Of a stretch of DNA of 64,000 nucleotides, positions 1,987 to 18,312 are shown in pieces (the first letter of the stretch is position 1; each line of letters opens with the position of its first letter). The position numbers and the translations under genes are program-made. The DNA comes from Sulfitobacter sp. W027 (lineage in GTDB: Bacteria; Pseudomonadota; Alphaproteobacteria; Rhodobacterales; Rhodobacteraceae): assembly GCF_025143985.1 (NCBI RefSeq), contig NZ_CP083564.1, forward strand, positions 248,001-312,000, read 5' to 3'. The notes under the pieces were generated by a model. That model ran no database searches and was not told the DNA's origin. It saw only the letters and a program-made list of their open reading frames with translations.

Positions 1987-3069
1987 ATGGGCAAACGTAT
2001 CGCAATCGTAGGGGGCGGATATCTCGGCGCTGAGCTTGCTAAGGTCATGGATGACATTGCCGATGTCACCCTGATCGAACAGCGCAGTCATTTTGTACAT
2101 GCCCCGGCGATGATCCGCGCCTTGGTGCAACCGAGTTTGGTTGAGGAATCGCTGATCCCTTATGGCCGTTTACTGAAACGCGGTCGCGTGGTCGCGGCGC
2201 GGGCGAAGGAGATCGATGGGGACGGTGTCACCCTAGATGACGGCACGCGGGTTGAAGCGGATTACATCATCGTTGCCACGGGGTCGGAGTATGCGGCCCC
2301 GTTCAAGCCCAAAGGTGCAGACGTCGACGGGCTGCGGGCCGCGAACCAAGAGACGCGCGAAAAGCTGTCATCGGCAAAGACCGTGGGCATCATCGGCGCG
2401 GGGGCAGTGGGTGTTGAACTTGCCGGTGAGATTGCCCATGCCATGCCGGATAAGAAAATCACCGTGATTACAATGGACGACAAGCTCTTTGCGGCAAAGC
2501 CCGAAAGTCTTGGGTCTGCGCTGAGCCGAAAGTTGAAGACCGGTGGGGTTGAGCTCATACTCGGTGAAAAGGCCGAAGGGCTTGCCTCAAAAACCGAGCC
2601 GCATGCGGGCAGTGTCACCTTTGGCGATGGAACTGAGCGGGCGTTTGATCTGATCTTTCCCGTTCTCGGGGCACGGGCCTGCTCTGACCTGCTGAAAGGC
2701 CTGCCGGGCGCAGAGGTGACTGTGGCAGAGCGGATCAAGACTGACGGCTATCTGCGCCCGTCGACCCTGCCGAATGTCTTTGCCGCCGGGGATGTGGCGG
2801 ACCCCGGTGACAATATGACTATCGTCGCGGTCAGCCGCCAATTGCCGTGGTTGAAAAGGACGCTCACGGGGCTGATCACGGGGCGCAAGCTGGTAGATAT
2901 GAAAACCTATCGTCCATGGGGATCCGAAGCGCCAATCTTACTGCCCTTGGGGCCGGAGCGTGGTAATAGCTTTCTGCTGCTGTTCACCGTTGGCGATTGG
3001 ATCACGCAAAAGATGAAAGGCGCGCATCTTTTTGTGTCGAAGTACCAAAAGCTGCTCAACCGCCCCTAA
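1987..3069 (+). CDS. FAD-dependent pyridine nucleotide-disulphide oxidoreductase (AIF/FSP1/NDH-2-like)
   Basis: Flavoprotein of 360 residues built from two Rossmann folds. The FAD-binding motif GGGYLGAELA sits at about residue 8, the ATG motif IIVATGSEYAAPF near 95, the NAD(P)H motif GIIGAGAVGVELAGEIA near 135, and the second FAD motif NVFAAGDVAD near 260. This order matches the family of NDH-2, AIFM2/FSP1 and related NADH:quinone or ferredoxin reductases. No membrane segment is evident, although the C-terminal 50 residues carry an amphipathic stretch (SFLLLFTVGDWI) that could touch a membrane. The start is preceded by AAGGAG. Electron acceptor unknown. Confidence 0.82.
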   Translation: MGKRIAIVGGGYLGAELAKVMDDIADVTLIEQRSHFVHAPAMIRALVQPSLVEESLIPYGRLLKRGRVVAARAKEIDGDGVTLDDGTRVEADYIIVATGSEYAAPFKPKGADVDGLRAANQETREKLSSAKTVGIIGAGAVGVELAGEIAHAMPDKKITVITMDDKLFAAKPESLGSALSRKLKTGGVELILGEKAEGLASKTEPHAGSVTFGDGTERAFDLIFPVLGARACSDLLKGLPGAEVTVAERIKTDGYLRPSTLPNVFAAGDVADPGDNMTIVAVSRQLPWLKRTLTGLITGRKLVDMKTYRPWGSEAPILLPLGPERGNSFLLLFTVGDWITQKMKGAHLFVSKYQKLLNRP

Positions 3070-3197
3070 TTGGACGGGGCGGCGGTCTGGAAGGGGCCCC
3101 GCATATACCGAAGAATAGAGCTGTTATCCCGAAGCCAGCAGGCATTGTTCGGTGACTTGTGTGAAGGTTGAAGCAGTTCAACTTAGGAGCATAAGTC

Positions 3198-3377
3198 ATG
3201 TCCATCCAGTTCAGCAGCATCTTCGAAGCCGCCAAAGGCGCGACAGAGATTACATCAATCACAGCCTGCGTCAGCATGGGGAAATACGCCACCGCGCAGG
3301 GCGAGCTTGTCTGGCAAAAGGGCGATATCGCCTGCGTGCGGGCCGCATCTGCACTCTTTGTCGGTAAACGCATCTAG
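3198..3377 (+). CDS. small protein of 59 residues, function unknown
   Basis: An open frame of 59 codons with AGGAG at 3185-3189, eight bases before the ATG. The predicted product begins MSIQFSSIFEAAKGATEITS, contains one Cys in TACVSMGKYATA and one in DIACVRAAS, and ends FVGKRI. No signal peptide or membrane helix is evident. It stands alone between the oxidoreductase and the response regulator, all on the plus strand. I recognise no family. The good ribosome site and coding-like composition argue for a real gene; the short length argues for caution. Confidence 0.5.
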   Translation: MSIQFSSIFEAAKGATEITSITACVSMGKYATAQGELVWQKGDIACVRAASALFVGKRI

Positions 3378-3452
3378 GGGTTTACGCCAAATTAGCTTTC
3401 TCACCCCTACTGTGAGCCTCGGGGTTTGATCCAGCGTGGAAGGCTTGGGAAG

Positions 3453-3848
3453 ATGACTTGGAACGCTATCGTTATCGACGACTCAGACATCGCGCGGCAG
3501 TTCATTCAAGCGTCCCTCGCCGAGGTCGGATTTTCTTGTGTGGCGGACTATGAGTGCCCGGTCCAAGCTTTGCAGGATATGATAAACGAGCGGATTGTAG
3601 CGGACGTCATTATCACAGATTTTATGATGCCAGCGATGGACGGGCTTGAGTTTTGTAGCCAAGTCAGAGGTCTGTCGTTCTACGACGATACCCCTGTCGT
3701 CATGATATCGTCCCGGAAAGACGCTGATCTCTTGCGCCGTGCCTTGGCGGCGGGGGCAAGTGACTGTTTGAAAAAGCCTTTTAGTTTGCCTGAACTTGGG
3801 CGACGGCTGCGTCTATCGATGCAAAAGACGAGGATCACCGTTCAATAG
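3453..3848 (+). CDS. single-domain response regulator (CheY-like receiver)
   Basis: Stand-alone receiver of 131 residues. The acidic pair D9-D10 (VIDDSD), the phospho-acceptor D56 in ITDFMMPAMDG, the conserved Ser in VVMISSRKD and the Lys in CLKKPF are all present, so phosphotransfer should be intact. There is no output domain, so it must act by protein contact, as in chemotaxis or phosphorelays. A start at 3426 is possible in frame, but the ATG at 3453 has GGGAAG just upstream and begins directly at the first beta strand. No histidine kinase is nearby; the partner is unknown. It is the last core gene before the island. Confidence 0.88.
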   Translation: MTWNAIVIDDSDIARQFIQASLAEVGFSCVADYECPVQALQDMINERIVADVIITDFMMPAMDGLEFCSQVRGLSFYDDTPVVMISSRKDADLLRRALAAGASDCLKKPFSLPELGRRLRLSMQKTRITVQ

Positions 3849-3953: not shown

Positions 3954-3970
3954 TGGTGCCCAGGAGAGGA
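3954..3970. repeat. attachment site attL (duplicate of tRNA-Leu 3' end)
   Basis: The 17 bases TGGTGCCCAGGAGAGGA are identical to 14672-14688, the last bases of tRNA-Leu including CCA. On this side the match stops abruptly after GAGGA and no tRNA body follows, as expected for the copy left at the far end after site-specific integration. Confidence 0.88.
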
Positions 3971-4732: not shown

Positions 4733-4843
4733 TCGAAGCAGCTCATGAGTGCACTCCTTTATAAAAAGCAAAAGGCTGGCTGCAGTAATGCTTTAGGAGC
4801 ATTCAGTCTCCATATCAGAAAACGAAGTGCAGAGACATAGAAC

Positions 4844-4877
4844 CAAAAGAAAAACCGCAGGTTATGCGCCTGCGGTT
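4844..4877 (-). terminator. hairpin with T-tract, minus-strand terminator
   Basis: AACCGCAGG (4853-4861) and CCTGCGGTT (4869-4877) form a perfect 9-bp stem with a 7-base loop. Read on the minus strand it is followed by TTTTTCTTTT, a standard Rho-independent terminator. It would end leftward transcripts starting in 4880-5000, where no minus-strand protein gene is seen, so an antisense or small RNA may end here. Confidence 0.6.
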
Positions 4878-4934
4878 CGAGTAACTTTCTGGTTGTATGA
4901 AATGTTACATCTGTGCACCTTGAGTTTGAGTGTT

Positions 4935-4965
4935 CCGCAGGTCCGTCAAGCACGTGCGGTTTTTC
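4935..4965 (+). terminator. hairpin with T-tract, plus-strand terminator or attenuator
   Basis: CCGCA at 4935-4939 pairs with TGCGG at 4955-4959 (with an inner GT/AC pair) and is followed by TTTTTC. It sits about 35 bp before the preferred start of the TIR-ATPase gene, so it could either end a short upstream RNA or attenuate that gene. Confidence 0.45.
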
Positions 4966-4997
4966 ATCACAGATTTATAGTAGCACAGGTTCTAATT

Positions 4998-7313
4998 TTG
5001 TCTAACTCGTCAGAAGTTTTTGTCGCATATGCCTCCACCCCACCGGAAGTTAGGAGGAAAATTGAAGAAGGTTGCGAGATAGCTAGCAAGTTCAACGATA
5101 GACCGCAGTTCAAGACTTGGGCTCAGAATGACATTGTGGGGCTAGATCTTGTGCAGCCCATCATCGAAGGGATAGAGGCCGCTCCATACGTCGTTGCTGA
5201 CATCACGTCGCTTAACGTCAACGTGGTGTACGAGATTGGATACGCAATTGGGCTAGGTAAGCGGGTAATTATCGTTCGCAACGCCGAATCGGACGTAACC
5301 TCCACGGAACTTAACAAGATTGGGATTTTCGATACTCTTGGCTATGATACTTACAGTACGGCCTTCGAGTTTGCCAGCAAAGTTACTGCTGACTTGTCTA
5401 ACCGAAAGCTAGAGATCAACTATGAGAAGAATAAAAGTCAGCCTCTGTATGTGGTTGGATGCGCGAGACCAAATGAAACGTCGCAACGGATAACATCAAG
5501 GATCAAAAAAAGTAGGCTTGTTTTCCGTAGTTTTAGCCCCTCTGAAGAGATCAGGCTATCTGCGCCAGCTGCTATTGAAAACATCGCGAGCTCACTGGGG
5601 GTGGTGCTTGAGTGGCGGGGTGAAGATGAGGAGTTTGCTACGCGGCACAATGTCAGAACTGCTTTCTGCGCTGGACTAGCTCATGCCCTTCGTATTGCAA
5701 CGGTAATATTCGCCCCGACGGGTGTATTAGTGCCGCTTGATTTTCGCAATTCGACGATTCAGGTGGCACGACCGGAGGACATCGATGATGGCATGGTTGA
5801 TTTCGTACCGTGCGTGGCTGAAGCCCTTCAGGAAATCCGACAAGTCAGTCCACGAAAGCCGAACAAGGTTGCCGAAATTGATTTAGGCGATCCGGCTGCC
5901 GAAAACGAAATGCGGTCATTGAACCGATACTTTCTTCAATCAGCAACATTTTCGGCTGCGATGAAAGGCGACGTCAGAACAATTGTTGGGCGGAAGGGGT
6001 CGGGGAAGACGGCTATTTGGGCCAGAATAAGGAATTCTGTAAGGAGCAATAAAAAAGCGACAGTTGTTGATCTTAAACCAGAGGGCTACCAGTTGGTGAA
6101 GCTTAGGGAAGATGTGCTGGTGCACCTCTCAACAGGTCAGGGTCTACATGTTGCAATGGCCTTCTGGGAATACTTGCTGCTACTAGAGGTTGCGACAAAG
6201 GTCGTGGAAAATGACAGGAAGCTGTACTCCCGAGATCAACGCCTAACTGAAGGTTATGAGGCTTTATCAGAACTGGTAGCCGAGTATAGCGACCTTGGGG
6301 ATTCCGACTTCAGCGAAAGGTTGCATAAATTCTCGGTGGGCTTGGCCGGTTCGCTTTCCACAGACCGCGATTTCATGACCGGTGGCTTTAAAGGTAACGA
6401 GCTAACCAACAAGATTTACGCTGTAGACATTAAGCGTTTCAGAGCATGCTTGTTCGACTATCTGAAAAATAAAGAGGATACATGGGTTCTCTTTGATAAT
6501 CTCGATAGGGGCTGGCCTACGCATGGACTCGAAGACGTAGATTTCACTATTCTACGTTCGCTTATTGACGCTGCCCGAAAGCTAGGACGATCGTTTGACC
6601 GAGCCCAGTTAAATCTTAATACCATAGTATTTATTAGAGATGATATTTACACAGAACTGGTATCGCGAACCAGCGACTTTGGAAAGGAGCAACCTAATCG
6701 AATTGACTGGCAGGACCCAGATCAATTGCGGGAAATGCTAAGGCTGCGCTTGGTTGATAATCCTAGCTTGGAAAATATGAACTTTGAAGACGCTTGGGCG
6801 TCTCTGTTCTGCTCGCATTACTTCGGCGAGGAGACATCGGAGTTCGTTATTGGGAGGTCGATGATGCGGCCAAGAAATCTCCTCAACCTGATAAATCATT
6901 GCCGCAGTGTGGCTATCAACCGTCAGCATGTGCGTATCGAAGAAGACGATTTGACGAAGGGCTTGGAGTCGTACTCGACCGATCTTCTTGTTGAGTTGTC
7001 GAGAGAGATGGAAGACGTACTTCCTGCGTATGACACACTTTTGTGGGACTTCGTTCACTCTAAGCAAAAGTTGACTACATCAGACCTGTATGAAGTGCTT
7101 GATCGGTCGGGCGTTAGACATGATGAGCGCGAGAGGGTCGTGGAAAGGTTAATTTATTACGGTTTCTTAGGCATTGTAGTCATGCAAGAGGAAAAGTATA
7201 TCTTTGATTACAGTTACGAAATCCGATTAATGCTCGCTCATATCCGAAAAACCGGTTCTCAGACGACTTTCTCTATTCATCCTGCATTCAGAAGTTCACT
7301 TACACTGATGTAG
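4998..7313 (+). CDS. TIR/nucleoside-deoxyribosyltransferase-like + P-loop ATPase protein, probable antiphage effector
   Basis: A 771-residue multidomain protein. Residues 5-95 (EVFVAYAS, GLDLVQPIIEGI, VVADITSLNVNVVYEIGYA) form a TIR/deoxyribosyltransferase-like fold with the ADIT and YE(I/L)GYA signatures; the Glu of YEIGYA matches the catalytic position. Residues 150-280 look like a second, degenerate copy (HNVRTAFCAGLAHAL). Residues 300-560 form a P-loop ATPase of the Sll1717 type with Walker A GRKGSGKT (331-338) and Walker B TWVLFDNLD (near 500). The C-terminus resembles a winged helix (VVERLIYYGFLGIV). The frame is open from 4827, but hairpins at 4853-4965 suggest the TTG at 4998. Such fusions typify abortive-infection proteins (NAD or nucleotide depletion), which is inference here. 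It stands alone in the island and converges on the resolvase. Confidence 0.78.
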   Translation: MSNSSEVFVAYASTPPEVRRKIEEGCEIASKFNDRPQFKTWAQNDIVGLDLVQPIIEGIEAAPYVVADITSLNVNVVYEIGYAIGLGKRVIIVRNAESDVTSTELNKIGIFDTLGYDTYSTAFEFASKVTADLSNRKLEINYEKNKSQPLYVVGCARPNETSQRITSRIKKSRLVFRSFSPSEEIRLSAPAAIENIASSLGVVLEWRGEDEEFATRHNVRTAFCAGLAHALRIATVIFAPTGVLVPLDFRNSTIQVARPEDIDDGMVDFVPCVAEALQEIRQVSPRKPNKVAEIDLGDPAAENEMRSLNRYFLQSATFSAAMKGDVRTIVGRKGSGKTAIWARIRNSVRSNKKATVVDLKPEGYQLVKLREDVLVHLSTGQGLHVAMAFWEYLLLLEVATKVVENDRKLYSRDQRLTEGYEALSELVAEYSDLGDSDFSERLHKFSVGLAGSLSTDRDFMTGGFKGNELTNKIYAVDIKRFRACLFDYLKNKEDTWVLFDNLDRGWPTHGLEDVDFTILRSLIDAARKLGRSFDRAQLNLNTIVFIRDDIYTELVSRTSDFGKEQPNRIDWQDPDQLREMLRLRLVDNPSLENMNFEDAWASLFCSHYFGEETSEFVIGRSMMRPRNLLNLINHCRSVAINRQHVRIEEDDLTKGLESYSTDLLVELSREMEDVLPAYDTLLWDFVHSKQKLTTSDLYEVLDRSGVRHDERERVVERLIYYGFLGIVVMQEEKYIFDYSYEIRLMLAHIRKTGSQTTFSIHPAFRSSLTLM

Positions 7314-7430: not shown

Positions 7431-7997
7431 TTAGCTTGGTCTTGTCTGTTTAGTTCGCTCGACAATCCGATGTACTGACCTTTCTGAGATGGATAGTTCT
7501 TTCGCTACCTGTCGTTTAGTCAACCCTCTCCGAAGCAGTTCTTCAGCTTGGGAACTTTTCGCCATTGCAGTAGGCATCCGTCCCTTGTACTTGCCTTCCC
7601 TTTTTGCCTTGGCGATGCCTTCTTTCTGACGTTCCAACATCATCTCACGCTCGAATTGAGCGACTGAACCAAGAACATTAAGCATCAGCTTTCCAGTCGC
7701 TCTCGTTGTATCCAAGCCTAGGTCTAAGACTTTCAGGTCGACGCCCTTATGTTCGAGTTCCTCAACGATCTCCCCAAGGTGTCTTACGGACCTAGCCAAG
7801 CGATCCAGCTTGGTCACAACGAAGATGTCACCCTCCCGACAGAAGCTGATGGCCTCTGAGAGCGCCTCACGAGGTCCTACAGAGCTCCTTTGCTCTTCCC
7901 ATACCCTGTTACACCCAACAGCCTCCAATGCCTCTCTCTGAGAATCGAATCCTGCTTTCTGTTCGAGTGTCGACGTACGTGCATATCCTACAAGCAT
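7431..7997 (-). CDS. serine recombinase (resolvase/invertase, Pin/TnpR type)
   Basis: The 188-residue product has the catalytic serine in GYARTSTLEQ (Ser9), the arginine-rich active-site block KLDRLARSVRHL, the GLDTTRATGKLMLNVLGSVAQFERE core of small resolvases, and a C-terminal helix-turn-helix (GLTKRQVAKELSISERSVHRIV). The length fits the resolvase/invertase subgroup rather than large serine integrases. No transposase or obvious paired crossover sites lie nearby. It could resolve dimers of the excised island or be left from an older transposon. Confidence 0.9.
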   Translation of the reverse strand: MLVGYARTSTLEQKAGFDSQREALEAVGCNRVWEEQRSSVGPREALSEAISFCREGDIFVVTKLDRLARSVRHLGEIVEELEHKGVDLKVLDLGLDTTRATGKLMLNVLGSVAQFEREMMLERQKEGIAKAKREGKYKGRMPTAMAKSSQAEELLRRGLTKRQVAKELSISERSVHRIVERTKQTRPS

Positions 7998-8794: not shown

Positions 8795-9427
8795 CCGAAA
8801 ATCCTTATATGGCTAGTCTGCTGAGGAAATGTAGGGTCGCAGCAGTGCGAGAAACAAGCCAGTTTTCCGGGTGGTGCCCATTTTCTTGCTCGACCAGTGC
8901 ACTCTGCAAAGGGTTTCTAGTTTCAATTTCGCCATGCGTCAGCGTCCAGTAAACAGCGCTGAGGTCCGACGACATCAGGAATGGTCGCTTTGTCCACACA
9001 GGGGATGATCCTGCGATGCGCAGCTAGCGACCGCTTTAGGCCCAATTTACTGGATACCGCACTGCGTACGGACGCTCGCTAAGTCGAACCTAGCCAAAAC
9101 CTGGCAGCACGTGCGGAGATTTCGGCAAGAACTTGTGACACCGTAATATTTGAGTATCTTCAACAGGAAGCGACTAATTGCAAAAAATGAGTGGATCGGC
9201 GAGAGGCAGCGCACCCTAGCCATGTCGGTGATCTTTCTTGAGGTCCTGTATAGTCGCATATACTCCGAACTTGTATCCTGCTGCATTGTGGCGGGTCGTC
9301 AGCATAGCGTGCTTTGGGTTTTAGAGAGCTGGCGGGTTGACAGTATGAATAAGTCGTGAATGAAATAATCGTTGCTAGCAAGTAAGTAACTGGATGAAGA
9401 ATTCGAATTTATAGATGGTGCATTTCT
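8795..9427. other. 633 bp without a recognisable gene
   Basis: Short frames occur on both strands (for example 8805-8999 and 9047-9286, minus) but none has a convincing ribosome site, signal or family motif, and none continues into a neighbour. The segment may be decayed cargo. The promoter for the GSCFA/SGNH pair is expected at its right end. Confidence 0.45.
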
Positions 9428-10516
9428 TTGACACATCCCTACCACAAGCAACCCGACAGTGCGTTTTGGAGAAAAACTATTTCTTCGGTTCCTTCAGCAC
9501 ACATTAGGAGCTGGTACTCAAAGCGCTTTGAAATTGCAGAAAGTAAGATCGCGACTGCGGGGAGTTGTTTCGCTCAACATATTGGCCGTAATCTACGCGA
9601 AAAGAAATTTAACTATCTTGATGCCGAACCCGCGCCGAATATGCTTTCGGAAAAGATGCGGTATGACTTCGGCTATGATATGTACTCGGCGCGGTATGGA
9701 AACGTTTATACGTCGCGGCAGCTTTTGCAGCTGTTTAAGCGTGCGTTTGGTATGTTTTCGCCGGTCGAATGTGTCTGGCGTAGGGGTGATGGCGTCGTAG
9801 ATCCATTCCGCCCGACTATCGAACCCGAGCCATTTTCCACTGTTCGAGAACTGGAGGCTCAGCGTGCCTACCATCTTGACTGCGTAGCGCAAATGTTTCG
9901 CTCCGCAGAGGTGTTCGTGTTTACGCTTGGTCTGACTGAGTCTTGGTCTGGGCGGGAAGATGGGGCAAATTTTCCGCTTTGCCCGGGCACAGCAGGGGGT
10001 AGCTATGATCCACAAAAACATGTTTTTGAGAATCTTTCAGTTTCTGCGGTGCTCGAGGATATGCACACGTTTTTCAGCTTGGCCCGTGAGATCAATCCGA
10101 CATTGAAGTTTTTGCTCACAGTCAGTCCGGTGCCCTTGGCTGCAACTGCGACCGGCCATCAGGTTGCCGTAGCGACCGCGCATTCGAAAGCGATCCTGCG
10201 CGCGGCGGCAGGGGAACTCTATGACGTCTACGATTACGTGGACTATTTCCCTTCGTTCGAAATTATTACTTCGCCGTTCATGCAGGGATCATTCTTTGAT
10301 GCAGATTGGCGCGGGGTAACCACAGAGGGTGTAGCCCAAGTAATGCAGACTTTTTTTTCTCAGCACGTACCGCCCGCCCATGAGTACGTCGGAAAGCAAC
10401 CGCTAGCCTCTAATACATCGCTTTCACATATAGCTAAGGTGGAAGCTGCACAGAAGGCGGAAAATATTCGGTGTGACGAAGAACTCCTGGGGTCATATGC
10501 TGGAGGTCGGTCGTGA
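9428..10516 (+). CDS. GSCFA domain protein
   Basis: The 362-residue product has the family-naming motif TAGSCFAQHIGRNL near residue 43, then FNYLDAEPAPN, FVFTLGLTESW near 160 and FLLTVSPVPL near 230, all standard for GSCFA (a branch of the SGNH-hydrolase fold found near polysaccharide genes). Translation must start at the TTG at 9428 to include the N-terminal conserved part; no in-frame ATG fits. It overlaps the next gene by 4 bases (GTGA), so the two are co-translated. The likely job is esterase or acyl transfer on a surface glycan, which is inference. Island cargo. Confidence 0.85.
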   Translation: MTHPYHKQPDSAFWRKTISSVPSAHIRSWYSKRFEIAESKIATAGSCFAQHIGRNLREKKFNYLDAEPAPNMLSEKMRYDFGYDMYSARYGNVYTSRQLLQLFKRAFGMFSPVECVWRRGDGVVDPFRPTIEPEPFSTVRELEAQRAYHLDCVAQMFRSAEVFVFTLGLTESWSGREDGANFPLCPGTAGGSYDPQKHVFENLSVSAVLEDMHTFFSLAREINPTLKFLLTVSPVPLAATATGHQVAVATAHSKAILRAAAGELYDVYDYVDYFPSFEIITSPFMQGSFFDADWRGVTTEGVAQVMQTFFSQHVPPAHEYVGKQPLASNTSLSHIAKVEAAQKAENIRCDEELLGSYAGGRS

Positions 10517-11340
10517 ATGCGCTTTTGATCGGGGACTCTCACATTACGGCACTTTTGCAAGCGCATCGCGCTATGCAGGCGCGCGGTGAACTAGCTCAGG
10601 ACGTGACTATTGCTCTGAAGCGTTTGGGAGGAGGGCACATTCTGCCAACTCCATTCTTCTCCAATGAAGGTGACTTTGCAAAAATTACCAATTCTGAATA
10701 CAAGTTAGCGTTCAGGCAGTTACCGCCCAAGGCGCGTCGTTTCGGGACCTTGGGATTATCCATGCCCTTGTGGCCCCTTAGAGTAATGTATCAACTCGTT
10801 GCACAGAAAATTAGCCTAGAAACCTCTGTGGACGGATTACGCCCGATGTCCTTGGCACTTTTTGAGCGTCTCGTTCTTGAAGACCAGAAATACGTTATAG
10901 AGCTTATAGAAATACTCCATCGCAGTGGGACGCGCGTTATCGCGGTTGCTCCGCCTTCGTTGTTTCGCGATCATCCGATAATGTCATTTCATCCTGCTAA
11001 TGACGCGTTGAAAATGTTTGCAACCTATCAGAAAATCATGACCACTGTGATGGAGAGAAGCAATGTGCATGTTATCCAGGTGCCTGAAAGGTGTTTGGAT
11101 GCAGAGGGTTTTATGCTTGCGAAATACCGTCACAAGGACCCTAAGGACTCCCATCATGCAAACGCAGTGTTCGGAAAAATAATGATCCGAGAAGTCGAAA
11201 TGTGGTTACGGACTCGGCCCGCTGAGGCAGACGAATGGCTGGAAATGCAAGCGGAAAAAAGAGCAGCTTATCTTCTGCAGAATAGCTCTTTGGCATTTCA
11301 TCAGAGATTGATACGTAAATTTCGACAACTGGTCCGGTAG
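10513..11340 (+). CDS. SGNH/GDSL-type hydrolase-like protein
   Basis: The product of 275 residues begins MNALLIGDSHITALLQ, placing a GDSH block I right at the N-terminus, and has DPKDSHHANAVFG near 213, which supplies the block V Asp-x-x-His. The GTG start has GGAGG seven bases upstream and overlaps the stop of the GSCFA gene as GTGA. No signal peptide is present, so it acts in the cytoplasm. As a partner of a GSCFA protein it may modify a polysaccharide precursor. The rest of the protein is not assignable; the C-terminus is basic (LIRKFRQLVR). Confidence 0.72.
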   Translation: MNALLIGDSHITALLQAHRAMQARGELAQDVTIALKRLGGGHILPTPFFSNEGDFAKITNSEYKLAFRQLPPKARRFGTLGLSMPLWPLRVMYQLVAQKISLETSVDGLRPMSLALFERLVLEDQKYVIELIEILHRSGTRVIAVAPPSLFRDHPIMSFHPANDALKMFATYQKIMTTVMERSNVHVIQVPERCLDAEGFMLAKYRHKDPKDSHHANAVFGKIMIREVEMWLRTRPAEADEWLEMQAEKRAAYLLQNSSLAFHQRLIRKFRQLVR

Positions 11341-11781
11341 GGACACTATCGGGTTAAAGGGTTAGTTTTGGTAGCAAGCGACACGATCCGCTGAACACTT
11401 GATCTGAAAGAGTTCCCATGTCGCAAAGCTTGAACGAGAATCCTTTTCCTGGGTAGCTTTGGCTTACCCTTTTTCACGTTCCGCATGGCGCCGTCGAGGG
11501 TGCAAAAGAGACCTCTTTTTACAGTGCTATCTCCCATAGCGACCATTGGCGCAAGCGCTGCAGAATGGGCTATGTCCGCTCAGCGGACATCAGAACTTTT
11601 GCAATACCCGTGCTCCGATGGGTACGCCCCTGTTATCGTACAAAGTAATGCATCAGAGAGCGTTAAGGATTGTCTTGGATACTACGTACTGACCACCATC
11701 TTCAAATGACCATTCAACATAGGGTGCTTCAATAAACCATAGTTTTTTGAAGAAATAGGGGGAACTTTATCTTTTGCTGGG
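11341..11781. other. no gene recognised
   Basis: About 440 bp between the ends of the SGNH gene and the polymerase-like gene (convergent). It contains a perfect palindrome at 11572-11590 and a plus-strand frame at 11485-11709 with no family match and no clear ribosome site. Confidence 0.45.
11572..11590. repeat. perfect 19-bp palindrome
   Basis: ATGTCCGCT C AGCGGACAT is a perfect dyad with a single central base. It is too short and lacks the T-tract for a terminator; it could be an operator or a recombinase crossover site. No adjacent promoter can be assigned. Confidence 0.4.
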
Positions 11782-13128
11782 TTAGATGAGAGGGGCTACC
11801 CCAATTTGATCAATGTAGGCCTTAGTTAAGAGTTCCTTAGTTAGTCCAGCTTTCGATTTGGGGACAATTAGGCTGTCATGGACAGGGAGGCTTGGTACCT
11901 GATGCTCATTCATAAGTTTCAGCATCACTGACAGAAACGCTTCCGATTCCAGAAACTGGAGCTTTGACCAATCCATACCACTTCCCTTGAGGCACTTGAA
12001 GGATGGGTACTTATCTATCAGGGCATCAACCACCAGTCGCACCTTAGGTACTTCGCTTAACGCTATTCCATCGGCTTCAGCGATGATGTCCTTCACTCCT
12101 CTTCCCCATCTAGTCGGAAGCTCCCCCCGACCAAAGGCAGCAAGAACTACTTGCTTGATACATGTTCGCGAAAAGCCCATCACACTGTACAGGTCTCGCG
12201 AAACCCTGACCAACTTCCCAACCTGCGCAAGGTAGATCGACAGATGGCTTGCGCTCACGTCGAGTTCTAAGGTCTCCTCGCCGTTGATCAGTATTCCTTT
12301 GCGCTTCTCCATTTTCATGTTTTGGTAATTGTCGTTACCAACAGCATATATCCTGCCCCCTCGGTCCCAGCTGAAATTTTGATCGTCCACATTGTTGAAG
12401 ACGCGTTTCAGCCGAGGTTGGGTAGGTAAATTGAATGTCTGTTGGTCCAAAAAGGTGTTGAGCGTGATTAAGGGTTCAGCCAACAAGATCAGGTTCTTGT
12501 TCTGCTTTGTGGCTATTGTCTGGCCTGCTTCGGGACGACCGTTCTTCGACTTCTTTCGCTTCTTCAAGACAACAGGTAAGCTGGCCGCATGGACATATTC
12601 AACGTGGTCGGAGATGTTCGAAGGAGTAATACCGTGTCTGGCAGCTTGTTCTAATAATGCTGGCGTTGCCCTGATGCGTTGGGCTCGGTAGGCGCTCACA
12701 GGTCCTACGATTTTCTCGCCCTCAAAGCCCTGACTGGGTCTGTACCCTGGAATAACCTCGATTAGACCTTCTCTGATACAAAACTCTCTGACAGCTTCGA
12801 TCTGGCGACGCTCAACTAAGGTGCCGTCGTATCCCTCCTGTTTCGTTGAGCGGTAACAAAAGCCCAAGGCGTCTTTGTTGCCCGCGTGCTTGACCAAGTC
12901 CGCCCAGTAGGCTGCTAGGCTCGCTAGCATATTTTTGTGGGCCTGTACGCTTCTCCTACGCGTTCTAAGGCCGTGTCTGAGTTCTAGAGTGGTGAGCTGT
13001 TGAGCAAGGTCGTTCGTGAACGCCTTCGCTGCTTCGGATTTGGGGCGGTAGAGGAGTTCTGCCATGTCGGCTTCTAACAGGATATTCCTCTTTTCATCGG
13101 TGTCGTAGGGGAGCGGTAGAAAGTGCAA
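11782..13128 (-). CDS. single-subunit polymerase-like protein (PolA/T7 RNA polymerase superfamily motifs)
   Basis: A 448-residue protein starting at a TTG with GGAGG just upstream. The C-terminal half has, in order, GGRIYAVGN (257-265), ELDVSASHLSIYL with candidate metal ligand D290 (motif A), RTCIKQVVLAAFG with R321 and K325 (motif B) and LPVHDSLIVP with H417-D418 (motif C). The same order and spacing logic occurs in family A DNA polymerases (DxSxxE, R..K, VHDE) and T7-like RNA polymerases (RGRVYAV, IHDSFG). The N-terminal 240 residues are not recognised and no exonuclease domain is seen. It may be a replication or priming enzyme of the island. The assignment is by eye from motifs; a replication protein of another fold cannot be ruled out. 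Confidence 0.6.
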   Translation of the reverse strand: MHFLPLPYDTDEKRNILLEADMAELLYRPKSEAAKAFTNDLAQQLTTLELRHGLRTRRRSVQAHKNMLASLAAYWADLVKHAGNKDALGFCYRSTKQEGYDGTLVERRQIEAVREFCIREGLIEVIPGYRPSQGFEGEKIVGPVSAYRAQRIRATPALLEQAARHGITPSNISDHVEYVHAASLPVVLKKRKKSKNGRPEAGQTIATKQNKNLILLAEPLITLNTFLDQQTFNLPTQPRLKRVFNNVDDQNFSWDRGGRIYAVGNDNYQNMKMEKRKGILINGEETLELDVSASHLSIYLAQVGKLVRVSRDLYSVMGFSRTCIKQVVLAAFGRGELPTRWGRGVKDIIAEADGIALSEVPKVRLVVDALIDKYPSFKCLKGSGMDWSKLQFLESEAFLSVMLKLMNEHQVPSLPVHDSLIVPKSKAGLTKELLTKAYIDQIGVAPLI

Positions 13129-13229
13129 AATGCCTCCGTCTGGTGTTCGACATTTAATCTAGCTGTAATGATCATTGGACCTAGTCCAAGGGAGAACTTT
13201 CAGTCCAAGGGAGGGATGGCATCGATCAA

Positions 13230-14579
13230 TCAATCGGTGCAGACCGACAGCAATGCATCATACTTTTTCTGAAGACTGTATCCTGAGCCATAGTTAGCTT
13301 GAGCACCCGATCCAAGGCTGTGCCCAAGTATGGCATTCTGGAGCTCTAAGGGGATGTCTTTAGCTCTGAGAGCGTCTTTCATGTTGTGACGTAAGGAATA
13401 GACCCCGTGCCTTCGGTCGGACGTGAAGCGTCGTAGTATCCTCATGAGTTGGTTGCTGAAGTTATCGTGGCTCCGAGGCTTGGCGAACTTCGGGAACGCT
13501 TCACCTAATCCAGTTTCGCGTGCCCTAATATCTTTGGCTACCTTCAATGCACGATTGCCGACGAGGGGTACCTTCCTTATTCGCGCGGAATCCTTAACGC
13601 CTCGGGAAGAATTCGGCTTAATATGGATGTATGGGACTTCATCTCCTACGCTAATTTCATCCATGTGAAGACCGAGTATTTCTGCATTTTGTGCCCCGGT
13701 ATGATGCATCAACGTCCAAATTTCCAAGAGTGTAGAATGGGATTGCAAAGCTTCATACATGTTGTCGATGATATCGGTTGGAAGCGGCTCACGAAGGTCC
13801 CTGGGAGCAGTCGAAGCTTCAGGGTACTCAAGGCTTCTGAAGCAAGTACACTCAGCAAGATCGTATTCACGTGCGGCATAATTGATGGCCGCTTTGATGT
13901 TATTGATCTGCCGTCGTGCGGAAGCTGGCTTCATCCTCTTAAGCAACCTGTCTCGGAGAGCTCTTGCGTGCGAGCGTTTGATCTTTGTAATCGGTAGATT
14001 GGACCCGAAGGCGACTAGCGCATGATCTTCAACGCGTCTGAAGTTGTTCACGTTTTTCCGCTGCTTGAAGGGGTCAGGGTTCTTTTTCTCTTTTAGGTAC
14101 AGGTTAAAGGCGTCGGTGACAGTTGGTTCGCTTTGGACTGTATCAACGCCTAGCCTGAGGGCGGCAACCAACCTGCTGTCTGCTTCTGAAACGCCTTCAT
14201 AGGTTCCGGTTTCTTCAATTAGAGGATACTTATTGAGTATCTCTTCTGAATATTCGCGTCTTGCGGTTTTCTCATCTGTGGTAGCACCTGGGCCATCTTG
14301 GGCGAGGCCGTTAAGCCTGAAGAAAGATTTTATGTGCTCTTGATGTTCTAGGGGGGTGGTAATCTCCCCCGTTGAGTTCACCAGTGCAATCTGTCGCTCA
14401 ACATCACGATGATACTCGCCGTAGGCTAAAGTGGCCTCTCGTTCTGAGATGCCCAGCACCTTGGAAAACTCTGACTTTCCCAGTGCCCTGTGAAGTGACT
14501 TGGGGACTCTTCGCCTGTAGCGGAAACGCCCGTTCTCATCGAGTTTAACGTATTTAAGTTTTAGCGCTGGGCGGGCCAT
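13230..14579 (-). CDS. tyrosine recombinase (island integrase) with altered first catalytic arginine
   Basis: The 449-residue product belongs to the phage-integrase superfamily. The N-terminus (LKLKYVKLDENGRFRYRRRVPKSL) is the arm/DUF6538-like part, then a SAM-like core-binding domain (about 150-240), then the catalytic domain with YSLRHNMKDALR (box II), AILGHS (His) and a Tyr in NYGSGYSL. The position of the first catalytic Arg reads HHTGAQNAEILGL, with CAA (Gln) where TGxRxxE is expected; box II begins with Tyr instead of His. Direct placement beside tRNA-Leu and the attR repeat identify it as the island integrase. It starts right beside the right arm sites, which suggests autoregulation. 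Confidence 0.9.
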   Translation of the reverse strand: MARPALKLKYVKLDENGRFRYRRRVPKSLHRALGKSEFSKVLGISEREATLAYGEYHRDVERQIALVNSTGEITTPLEHQEHIKSFFRLNGLAQDGPGATTDEKTARREYSEEILNKYPLIEETGTYEGVSEADSRLVAALRLGVDTVQSEPTVTDAFNLYLKEKKNPDPFKQRKNVNNFRRVEDHALVAFGSNLPITKIKRSHARALRDRLLKRMKPASARRQINNIKAAINYAAREYDLAECTCFRSLEYPEASTAPRDLREPLPTDIIDNMYEALQSHSTLLEIWTLMHHTGAQNAEILGLHMDEISVGDEVPYIHIKPNSSRGVKDSARIRKVPLVGNRALKVAKDIRARETGLGEAFPKFAKPRSHDNFSNQLMRILRRFTSDRRHGVYSLRHNMKDALRAKDIPLELQNAILGHSLGSGAQANYGSGYSLQKKYDALLSVCTD

Positions 14580-14671: not shown

Positions 14672-14688
14672 TGGTGCCCAGGAGAGGA
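14672..14688. repeat. attachment site attR (3' end of tRNA-Leu)
   Basis: Seventeen bases identical to 3954-3970. Here they are part of the intact tRNA-Leu gene: CCA, discriminator, acceptor strand and part of the T-stem. Integration therefore restored the tRNA. Confidence 0.88.
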
Positions 14689-14757
14689 CTCGAACCTCCA
14701 CACCGTTGCCAGTACTAGCACCTGAAGCTAGCGCGTCTACCATTCCGCCACCTGGGC
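14672..14757 (-). tRNA. tRNA-Leu(CAG)
   Basis: The minus strand folds as a class II tRNA of 86 nt: acceptor GCCCAGG pairs with CCTGGGC, D-arm GGCGGAATGGTAGACGCG, anticodon stem CTAGC/GCTAG with loop TTCAGGT (anticodon CAG), a long variable arm and the T-arm GGAGGTTCGAGTCCTCT... ending in encoded CCA. It serves as integration target of the island. Confidence 0.96.
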
Positions 14758-15912: not shown

Positions 15913-16718
15913 TGGAACAGTCGACCACTCTGATCGCTGCTTTTTTGGGTTTGCTGGAGGGGCTGACAGAGTTCATCCCCGTATCCTCGACCGGACACCT
16001 TTTGACGGCTGGGTATTTTTTAGGGTTCCACAGCGCGGGACGGACCTTTGAGGTCGTGATCCAACTTGGCGCCGTGTTGGCGATCCTGACGGTCTATTCT
16101 GCACGGCTTTGGGCGGTCTTCTCTGCCGCGCCCCATGACCCGCAAGCGCGGCGGTTCATCTGGTCGGTGCTTCTGGCCTTTCTGCCTGCGGTCGTGATCG
16201 GCGTTTTGGCGCACGACTTTATTAAAACGGTCCTGTTTGAAACGCCGATGCTGATCGCCATCATGTTGGTGCTGGGTGGGGTGGTGCTTTTAGTAGTGGA
16301 TCGCATCGCCCCCGCGCCGACTTATTCCGACGCGACCAAATTCCCGCCTTCGATGGCTTTCAAGATCGGTGTGATTCAATGCCTCGCTATGGTGCCTGGC
16401 ACGTCGCGGTCGGGTGCGACCATTGTCGGGGCCTTGTTGCTGGGGTCTAGCAAACGTGCTGCGGCGGAATTTTCGTTCTTCCTGTCGATGCCGACCATGG
16501 CGGGGGCCTTCGCCTATGACCTTTATCAAAACCGTGATGTGCTTGATGCCTCTGCCATGGGTGAAATCGCCGTAGGCTTTGCCATGGCCTTTATCTCTGC
16601 CGTGATCGTGGTGCGTTGGGTGCTCGATTACGTGAGCCGCTATGGCTACGCACTCTTCGGTTGGTGGCGAATCCTAGTTGGCGGGGTCGTTATCCTCGCG
16701 TTATGGGCGGGCATGTAG
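15912..16718 (+). CDS. uppP: undecaprenyl-diphosphate phosphatase
   Basis: Integral membrane enzyme that recycles undecaprenyl pyrophosphate to the monophosphate carrier of peptidoglycan and glycan synthesis. The 268-residue product has the first signature [16 protein letters not shown] near residue 17 and the second [17 protein letters not shown] near 160, both with their catalytic Glu, Ser and Arg residues, and about eight hydrophobic segments. The length is typical (BacA family). The ATG shares bases with the upstream TAA. Because several glycan genes lie in this window the enzyme supports both wall and capsule carriers, but it is a general housekeeping gene. Confidence 0.96.
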
Positions 16719-16878
16719 GCAGATAGGTCCACATCGGACCTTAAATGATGCATAAAATTGTTATCCGGGTGCCTTAATTGCTCGGAAAGAGGTAAATAGG
16801 TCATCACTGCTGTCTTTTATTTACTTTGCCGCTCTTGTATTTGAGCCTTCTGACGGAATTTGTCGAAGGAACGGGTAT

Positions 16879-18312
16879 ATGGCGAAGCAGGTCATGCTGA
16901 AATTTACAGACGTCGCACGGGATATGCCCGAAAAGCGCCCGCCCAATTTGCGCAGGACGGATTTCGACGAGATCTATGCCGAATACGCGGATGCCAAGGC
17001 CGCCGAGCAGTCGAGCCGCTGCAGCCAATGCGGCGTGCCCTACTGCCAGACCCATTGTCCGCTACACAACAACATCCCAGACTGGCTGCGCTTGACCGCC
17101 GAAGGGCGTCTGCAAGAGGCCTATGAGATCAGTCAGGCCACGAATACTTTTCCCGAGATCTGTGGCCGCATCTGCCCGCAGGACCGCCTGTGCGAAGGCA
17201 ACTGCGTGATCGAGCAGTCGGGCCATGGCACCGTCACCATCGGCTCGATCGAGAAATACATAACCGACACTGCGTGGGAGCAGGGCTGGGTCAAACCCGC
17301 CGCCCCGCGCGAAGAGCGCCCCGAGAGCGTCGGCATCATCGGCGCGGGCCCCGGCGGTCTGGCGGCGGCAGATATGCTGCGCCGCGCAGGCGTGCAGGTC
17401 ACCATCTATGACCGCTACGATCGGGCGGGCGGGTTGCTGACCTATGGCATCCCCGGCTTCAAGCTGGAGAAAGACGTGGTCGAGCGCCGCAATGCACAGC
17501 TCGCCGAGGGTGGGGTGACCTTTGAATTGAACTGCAACGTCGGCACCGACATCAGCTTTGGCGCGATCCGGGGCAAGCATGACGCGGTGATCATTGCCAC
17601 AGGCGTTTACAAAACGCGTGAGATCGAAGTCCCCGGTGTGGGTGGGTTCGGTGTGGAGCGGGCGATTGACTTTCTGACCGCCTCCAACCGCAAAAGCTTT
17701 GGCGACACGGTCGAAGAATTCGAGAATGGCCGTCTGAATGCCGCTGGCAAAAAGGTCGTTGTGATCGGCGGCGGTGACACGGCGATGGACTGCGTGCGCA
17801 CCTCGATCCGTCAGGGTGCGGAGAGCGTGAAATGTCTCTACCGTCGGGACCGGGCCAATATGCCGGGCAGCCAGCGCGAAGTGCAAAACGCCGAGGAAGA
17901 AGGCGTGATTTTTGAATGGCTGAGCGCGCCCAAGGGTTTTGTCGGCGATCCCGTGACCGGCGTGATGGTACAGAAGATGCGGCTTGGTGCGCCCGATGTG
18001 ACTGGCCGTCAGGCGCCCGAGGTCATCGAAGGTGCGGATTACGTCGAAGAGGCCGATCTGGTCATCATGGCTCTGGGCTTTGAACCCGAAGACCTGCCGA
18101 CCCTTTGGAACGAGCCGGACCTGCCGGTGAACCGCTGGGGCACGATCAAAGCCGACTATGTCACCGGAGCCACCACGCTTGATGGCGTCTATGCCGTAGG
18201 CGACATCGTGCGCGGTGCGAGCCTTGTAGTCTGGGCGATTAAAGATGGCCGCGACTGCGCCGAAGCGATCCTTAACGATTTCAATGGGGCGCAGCGCATC
18301 GCTGCGGAATGA
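16879..18312 (+). CDS. gltD: glutamate synthase small subunit
   Basis: Beta subunit of NADPH-dependent glutamate synthase; it passes electrons from NADPH via FAD to the iron-sulphur clusters and the large subunit. The 477-residue product has the N-terminal cluster motif CSQCGVPYCQTHCPLHNNIP (near 50), further cysteines in CGRICPQDRLCEGNC, the FAD motif GIIGAGPGGLAAADMLR (near 150), the NADPH motif VVIGGGDTAMDCVR (near 290) and the C-terminal GDIVRGASLVVWAI. AAGGA precedes the ATG. It heads a tight operon with two GFA proteins and gltB. Confidence 0.96.
   Translation: MAKQVMLKFTDVARDMPEKRPPNLRRTDFDEIYAEYADAKAAEQSSRCSQCGVPYCQTHCPLHNNIPDWLRLTAEGRLQEAYEISQATNTFPEICGRICPQDRLCEGNCVIEQSGHGTVTIGSIEKYITDTAWEQGWVKPAAPREERPESVGIIGAGPGGLAAADMLRRAGVQVTIYDRYDRAGGLLTYGIPGFKLEKDVVERRNAQLAEGGVTFELNCNVGTDISFGAIRGKHDAVIIATGVYKTREIEVPGVGGFGVERAIDFLTASNRKSFGDTVEEFENGRLNAAGKKVVVIGGGDTAMDCVRTSIRQGAESVKCLYRRDRANMPGSQREVQNAEEEGVIFEWLSAPKGFVGDPVTGVMVQKMRLGAPDVTGRQAPEVIEGADYVEEADLVIMALGFEPEDLPTLWNEPDLPVNRWGTIKADYVTGATTLDGVYAVGDIVRGASLVVWAIKDGRDCAEAILNDFNGAQRIAAE

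Follow-up and report, generated by a model that had tools for sequence, protein, structure and literature searches.

What is the enzyme encoded at 11782 to 13128 in this stretch of Sulfitobacter sp. W027, and what does it do for the DNA that carries it? The stretch, all 64,000 nucleotides of which are called the window here, was given a preliminary description from its letters alone, in which the 448-residue product was read as a possible single-subunit nucleic-acid polymerase, a new minimal family that might replicate or prime a newly recognised type of element. The polymerase class is upheld by our analysis, but the novelty of the family and of the element type is not. From conserved residues and a predicted model we assign the gene to TV-Pol (transposon-virus polymerase), with an A-family-like palm and fingers core after a winged-helix-like domain. 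Together with a tyrosine integrase it forms the two-gene core of a 10.7-kb island inserted in tRNA-Leu(CAG), and we think it probable that, on this integrase-coupled island, the polymerase primes or extends DNA of the excised form.

The polymerase gene and its conserved residues

The open reading frame is intact, lies on the minus strand and starts with TTG. The same start position, there with M, is found in three metagenomic relatives (71-87% identity), the whole frame is kept in relatives, and the nearest named homolog is also from Sulfitobacter. The features of the gene are as follows.

11782..13128, minus strand: TV-Pol family polymerase, 448 residues, N-terminal winged-helix-like domain and polymerase domain (about residues 178-448)
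12610..12960, minus strand: residues 57-173 in the N-terminal domain (TV-PolN), predicted to form a winged helix
12352..12360, minus strand: beta-hairpin with conserved Arg, G257-G258-R259 (alignments, profile-profile)
12244..12267, minus strand: motif A ELDVSASH, residues 288-295, presumed metal ligand D290 (alignments, profile-profile)
12154..12168, minus strand: motif B RTCIK, residues 321-325, RxxxK of the fingers (alignments, profile-profile)
11860..11889, minus strand: motif C LPVHDSLIVP, residues 414-423, presumed metal ligand D418 (alignments, profile-profile)

The four motifs cited in the preliminary description, GGRIYAVGN (257-265), ELDVSASH, RTCIKQ (321-326) and LPVHDSLIVP, do occur in the order that it gave, its numbering of D290 and D418 is correct, and all are conserved across homologs. 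Conservation was read from alignments A1 (36 rows, being the window and 35 of 43 homologs) and A2 (78 rows, being the window, 51 open reading frames from loci and 26 homologs); a third alignment, A3, has 61 rows. A2 omits 17 homologs and those reading frames that are split, cut, fused or redundant (L018, L027, L030, L034, L039, L044, L048, L049, L051, L053, L058, L060 and L061), and the locus sample is skewed to close relatives because the loci were retrieved via one motif-C pattern. Ten positions are invariant in the 36 aligned sequences: G258, R259, R276, E288, D290, Y314, R321, K325, H417 and D418. In the wider alignment R259 and K325 are present in 78/78 rows, D290 and D418 each in 77/78, R321 in 75/78, H417 in 75-78 of the 78, and D312, the fingers Asp, in 70/78. 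With key residues invariant or nearly so across homologs, the motif set is more than chance.

A decayed, inactive remnant might be suspected from the fragmented copies in related genomes (L027, L030, L034 and L044, whatever the cause) and from a tandem copy without both catalytic Asp (L038:7692-9032). But the window frame is intact with every invariant residue, and retention of the whole frame in the metagenomic relatives at 71-87% identity also speaks against decay, so that we find this explanation scarcely credible.

The tandem copy is the sole row of the 78 without D290, and it is also the one without D418. It comes from a Pseudodesulfovibrio metagenome-assembled genome, in which the upstream gene has G and E for the catalytic Asp while the second (9278-10615) keeps both, and the upstream product may therefore be an inactive partner subunit.

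Which class of polymerase

No useful result came from searching Pfam, NCBIfam, PADLOC and PDB sequences, either with the polymerase itself or with profiles built from it. The window protein has no Pfam match at E up to 10, in agreement with the earlier statement that it shows no exonuclease domain. DNA polymerase I (PF00476) matched neither the window protein nor, with E up to 1, any of the 36 members, and T7-like RNA polymerase (PF00940), also without a match in the window protein, is not among the 12 families listed for those members. A PF00476 match is present elsewhere in all 80 of the 80 genomes searched, the window's own included. The polymerase matches phrog_4756 strongly, a family that carries no function. 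A repeat protein search with profile A2 (8000 candidates scored) gave 28 proteins, 25 of them known from the first round and none with a Pfam domain. The source name of one first-round homolog, P0033, begins 'DNA-directed DNA polymerase family A palm'.

The profile-profile check against family A that had been proposed was run, unguided, against a broad Pol I profile. In palm-only local hhalign it gave a P no better than 0.0051 and an HH probability of only 7%, with the motifs in the Pol I register: GGRIY..YQN on TGRLSS..LQN, DVSASHLSI on DYSQIELRI, R-TCI-K on R-RSA-K and VHDSLIV on VHDELVF. The control profiles, integrase and resolvase, gave P 0.19 and 0.31. An RNA polymerase profile gave P 0.004 with motif C alone aligned, and MAP_030 of phage Ma-LMM01 aligned along 83 columns, hairpin through motif B, at P 7.3e-5. 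Palm-only global hhalign gave P 0.0016 for Pol I, 0.77 for RNA polymerase, 0.011 for MAP_030 and 0.52 and 0.40 for the controls; whole-length comparisons were unconvincing (T7 RNA polymerase P 0.16, T7 gp5 type 0.034, MAP_030 0.0073).

The preliminary description would have been given up had the predicted fold lacked a palm; by fold comparison of the model, a polymerase palm is present. A helix (211-228) lies before the hairpin, and the N-terminal domain is modelled as helices plus strands 91-94, 123-130 and 147-154, with a winged-helix-like core by fold comparison. The best match among viral predicted structures (BFVD) is a protein of Rheinheimera phage Barba31A labelled DNA polymerase, in a phage that sequence search detected as well. 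Motif conservation, the Pol I register and the palm in the model thus bear out the single-subunit polymerase superfamily.

Within this superfamily, one has to consider a single-subunit RNA polymerase of T7 type, serving to transcribe the genes of the island or solely to make RNA primers, as the model shares the palm and fingers fold with such enzymes over about 240 residues and motif C has the HDS form seen in T7 gp1 and mitochondrial RNA polymerase. But the best Pol I-type fold match is just 0.5 Z lower, which is a tie, and only motif C aligned to the RNA polymerase profile. In phage KASIA the homolog occurs alongside an annotated RNA polymerase and a DNA polymerase I, and the window protein is 448 residues long against 883 for T7 gp1 and has no PF00940 match. 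Finally the residue eight after the motif B Lys, which we take to be the position of Pol I Y766 and T7 RNA polymerase Y639, is not Tyr in any of the 78 rows (G 47, N 22, S 6, A 2, Q 1). We regard an RNA polymerase of this kind as unlikely.

With bacterial DNA polymerase I there is the same motif order, with hairpin and motifs A, B and C in register. It differs in having exonuclease domains, a PF00476 match and three residues that are missing here: besides Y766, the equivalent of E710 (D+5) is Glu in 0/77 rows, being H295 in the window, and that of F762 (K+4) is Phe in 1/78 only, being L329 in the window.

Assignment to TV-Pol

TV-Pol was described by Iyer, Abhiman and Aravind in 2008 (PMC2579912) as an A-family-like polymerase, minimal in form and carried by mobile elements, with an absolutely conserved hairpin Arg, an RRM-like palm with two Asp, a fingers Asp and RxxxK, a two-helix coiled-coil thumb and no fused nuclease domain; primase and DNA polymerase activity were predicted for it. 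A subset carries the N-terminal domain TV-PolN, and gene neighbours are a gamma-delta resolvase, a lambda-type integrase or a transposase (PMC2579912). The window protein has each of the corresponding residues: R259 as hairpin Arg, falling on the Arg of Pol I TGR in the profile alignment, D290 and D418 in a predicted palm, and D312, R321 and K325 in the fingers. Its fold matches are to a polymerase part and a winged-helix-like part, with no nuclease among them. It also has an N-terminal domain, an integrase gene 101 bp upstream and a resolvase gene on the island, as the TV-PolN subset would have. Because conserved residues, presence of an N-terminal domain and neighbours match TV-Pol of 2008, the suggested new minimal family is one already described, and elements linking TV-Pol with integrase or resolvase are likewise already in PMC2579912.

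Two sequences probably connect our set to that paper. The hosts in both include alphaproteobacteria, and the TV-Pol alignment of 2008 includes a Roseovarius nubinhibens sequence (Rnub, PMC2579912); the R. nubinhibens ISM genome has exactly one match to our family profile, L009, which is 34% identical to the window protein. MAP_030 adjoins two transposase genes and resembles the family in its pattern of hairpin, D, K and HD, though HMMER scores it no better than E 0.018 (A2) or 0.24 (A1), and we infer that it is the Ma-LMM01 member of the 2008 paper.

There are also differences. The N-terminal domain was predicted to be all-helical in PMC2579912, whereas our model has a winged-helix-like core with strands. 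The elements were proposed to be replicative transposons, and tRNA targets are unmentioned in the main text of that paper, while the island here is specific for a tRNA site.

The tRNA-Leu island

The other features of the island are as follows.

13230..14579, minus strand: lambda-type tyrosine integrase, immediately upstream of the polymerase (PF00589 E 9.8e-6, 25.9 bits, just below the Pfam cut-off of 27.1)
14672..14757, minus strand: tRNA-Leu(CAG), the integration target
14672..14688, no strand: att repeat at the tRNA 3' end (TGGTGCCCAGGAGAGGA)
3954..3970, no strand: att repeat at the far end of the island, identical over 17 bp
7431..7997, minus strand: small serine recombinase of gamma-delta resolvase type (PF00239 E 3e-39), the other TV-Pol partner named in 2008
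4827..7313, plus strand: island cargo, 828-residue protein, weakly P-loop ATPase-like and TIR/nucleoside deoxyribosyltransferase-like (Pfam below curated cut-offs; PADLOC E 0.013 and 0.039)

The longest repeat in 200 dinucleotide shuffles was 13 bp against the 17 bp observed, and GC is 0.489 inside the island against 0.571 and 0.617 in the flanks. In one congener (G298, L275) the homologs of window positions 2851-3833 and 14665 onwards are 455 bp apart, as against 10.8 kb in the window; for the remaining eight relatives examined, the tRNA-side flank alone was found within the 1.5 kb of sequence compared. Reading from the tRNA, the genes are integrase, polymerase, a pair on the other strand (9428-11340) of which the first encodes a GSCFA-family protein and the second has no Pfam match, then a Rap1a-like gene, resolvase, the 828-residue protein and a UPF0149 protein. 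Downstream of the polymerase there is no obvious gene in 440 bp, the short open reading frames there not having been folded.

The 101-bp spacer between integrase and polymerase (13129-13229) contains two copies of CCCTTGGACT, seen by eye, and an imperfect palindrome at 13159-13184. A search for iterons or an origin found two-copy repeats and this one spacer palindrome only, and the spacer repeats and palindrome are not obviously shared by the spacers of seven relatives, compared by eye.

The 828-residue protein is a candidate defence gene. With regard to a name for the island, we found no reason to class it as a tycheposon, a PICMI or a Charybdis element, judged by such parts of their descriptions as were available.

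Neighbourhoods and spread of the relatives

Neighbourhoods were counted in 57 loci (L001 and L004-L059), made up of the window, a single plasmid and 55 loci from genomes. A tyrosine integrase is on the examined stretch in 36 of them and a serine recombinase in 24. The integrase overlaps a tRNA 3' end or lies within 400 bp of it in 25, with the window as a 26th whose tRNA is outside L001; the tRNAs over all 25 are Leu, Arg, Val, Lys, Glu, His, Cys, Pro, Ser, Met, Phe, Gly and Thr. In 12/57 loci the polymerase follows the integrase on one strand within 350 bp, and in eight of the 12 a tRNA precedes the integrase (L008, L009, L013, L017, L021, L028, L041 and L048; Leu, Arg, Glu, His or Ser). As in the window, tRNA-Leu(CAG) is used by L008 and by R. 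nubinhibens L009. In the window's taxonomic family 41/295 genomes have a match, the window's included, several having 2-5 matches, some of which are pieces of one gene; the one other genome of the window's genus in this sample has none.

The 12 operon loci, counted with a single-reading-frame fusion (L018), could suggest that the polymerase serves recombination itself by copying an integration or excision intermediate, and not replication of a circle. Several homologs have no integrase on the examined stretch, phage and phage-plasmid contexts included, and tyrosine recombination leaves no gaps, which also counts against this role; we consider it quite improbable.

The frame of L018 (8213-11353, plus strand, Bradyrhizobium japonicum in8p8) is uninterrupted over 1046 residues, with integrase at 7-599 and polymerase at 596-1042, and may be either a true fusion or an artefact of assembly. 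In L017, a relative of it, integrase and polymerase genes share 4 bp. Microvirga zambiensis (L014) has two TV-Pol genes in opposite directions about 5.3 kb apart (9908-11335, plus strand, and 16622-17983, minus strand) and a tRNA-Leu(CAG)/integrase pair in the interval; these may be adjacent elements at a single tRNA.

Cargo genes bear on a further explanation, that the polymerase belongs to defence or conflict and is itself carried as cargo, by analogy with the abortive-infection reverse transcriptases. Near the polymerase there are Vsr, HNH endonuclease and DNA methyltransferase genes in L004, and the protein with weak TIR and ATPase matches in the window. But PADLOC has no match for the polymerase, its recurring partners are integrase and resolvase, and homologs occur in phage genomes, so that such a role seems very improbable.

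Phage and viral contigs also carry TV-Pol genes. In Shewanella phage KASIA (L003) the TV-Pol homolog at 11317-12666 is called hypothetical and, with the annotated RNA polymerase and DNA polymerase I, makes three superfamily members in one genome. L036 (10,206 bases, terminal repeat of 88 bp) has TV-Pol with terminase, portal and head-tail connector genes (five of the eleven open reading frames of at least 90 residues were scanned, besides TV-Pol's own profile match) and is possibly a small circular phage-like genome. L062 (viral, 13,249 bases, 99-bp overlap of its ends) is possibly a circular phage-plasmid: the polymerase comes after genes for an RPA replication initiator and a resolvase, a ParA-type ATPase is encoded nearby, and there are matches to a virion structural family.

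Proposed role

The most economical role for the polymerase is to replicate or prime the excised island, because the polymerase is element-borne and tied to integrase and resolvase, because it lies behind initiator and resolvase on L062, and because a distant relative, CCPol, together with its partner MP starts new strands without a primer in vitro (PMC10061031). Some parts of the scheme have support from sequence or predicted model, namely polymerase family, palm fold, integrase operon, att repeats, resolvase and a near-empty site in one congener. Excision, DNA binding, priming, the nucleotides used and copying of the island by the polymerase are the steps that we infer. The integrase would excise the island as a circle, and the winged-helix domain would recruit the polymerase to the island or hold the template strand. 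The polymerase would then prime and/or extend DNA on the excised form with host helicase and replisome parts, the serine resolvase would resolve multimers, and the integrase would reinsert island copies at tRNA genes. The RPA initiator on L062 weighs against this role, as the polymerase is not the sole initiation protein there.

Among the close known systems are CCPol-MP and the other PolA-SSB primases of the staphylococcal cassette chromosome and other Bacillota elements. They share an A-family core on a recombinase-driven element, and primer synthesis is demonstrated for CCPol-MP and proposed for the others (PMC7581432, PMC10061031). Their partners are an OB-fold protein encoded separately and, as a rule, a helicase, whereas the window protein has a fused winged-helix-like domain and no helicase was recognised on the island, nor in the ten neighbour clusters common to at least four loci (by eye, first 70 residues). 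CCPol also keeps the E710 and F762 of Pol I, both of which the window polymerase lacks.

A bolder version, tentative and on balance doubtful, is a one-protein initiator-polymerase, in which an origin- or template-binding winged helix and an A-family core without the sugar-discrimination residues of Pol I and T7 RNA polymerase would start chains itself, with ribonucleotides and/or deoxyribonucleotides, and replicate excised, helicase-less tRNA islands in step with the integrase. If true, this would add a further type of primase to DnaG and AEP, distinct also from CCPol-MP.

What remains of interest is how this branch works. CCPol is the sole biochemically characterised TV-Pol to the knowledge of the authors of PMC7581432 (2020, eLife), and we found no biochemical description of this branch among the TV-Pol papers, as judged from titles, the openings of abstracts and passages of PMC7581432, PMC10061031 and PMC11348598. 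The residue differences from CCPol lead to a sharp prediction on ribonucleotide use, and the island and its relatives offer a small, intact and well-conserved system for asking if A-family polymerases are able to serve as stand-alone primases of integrative elements.
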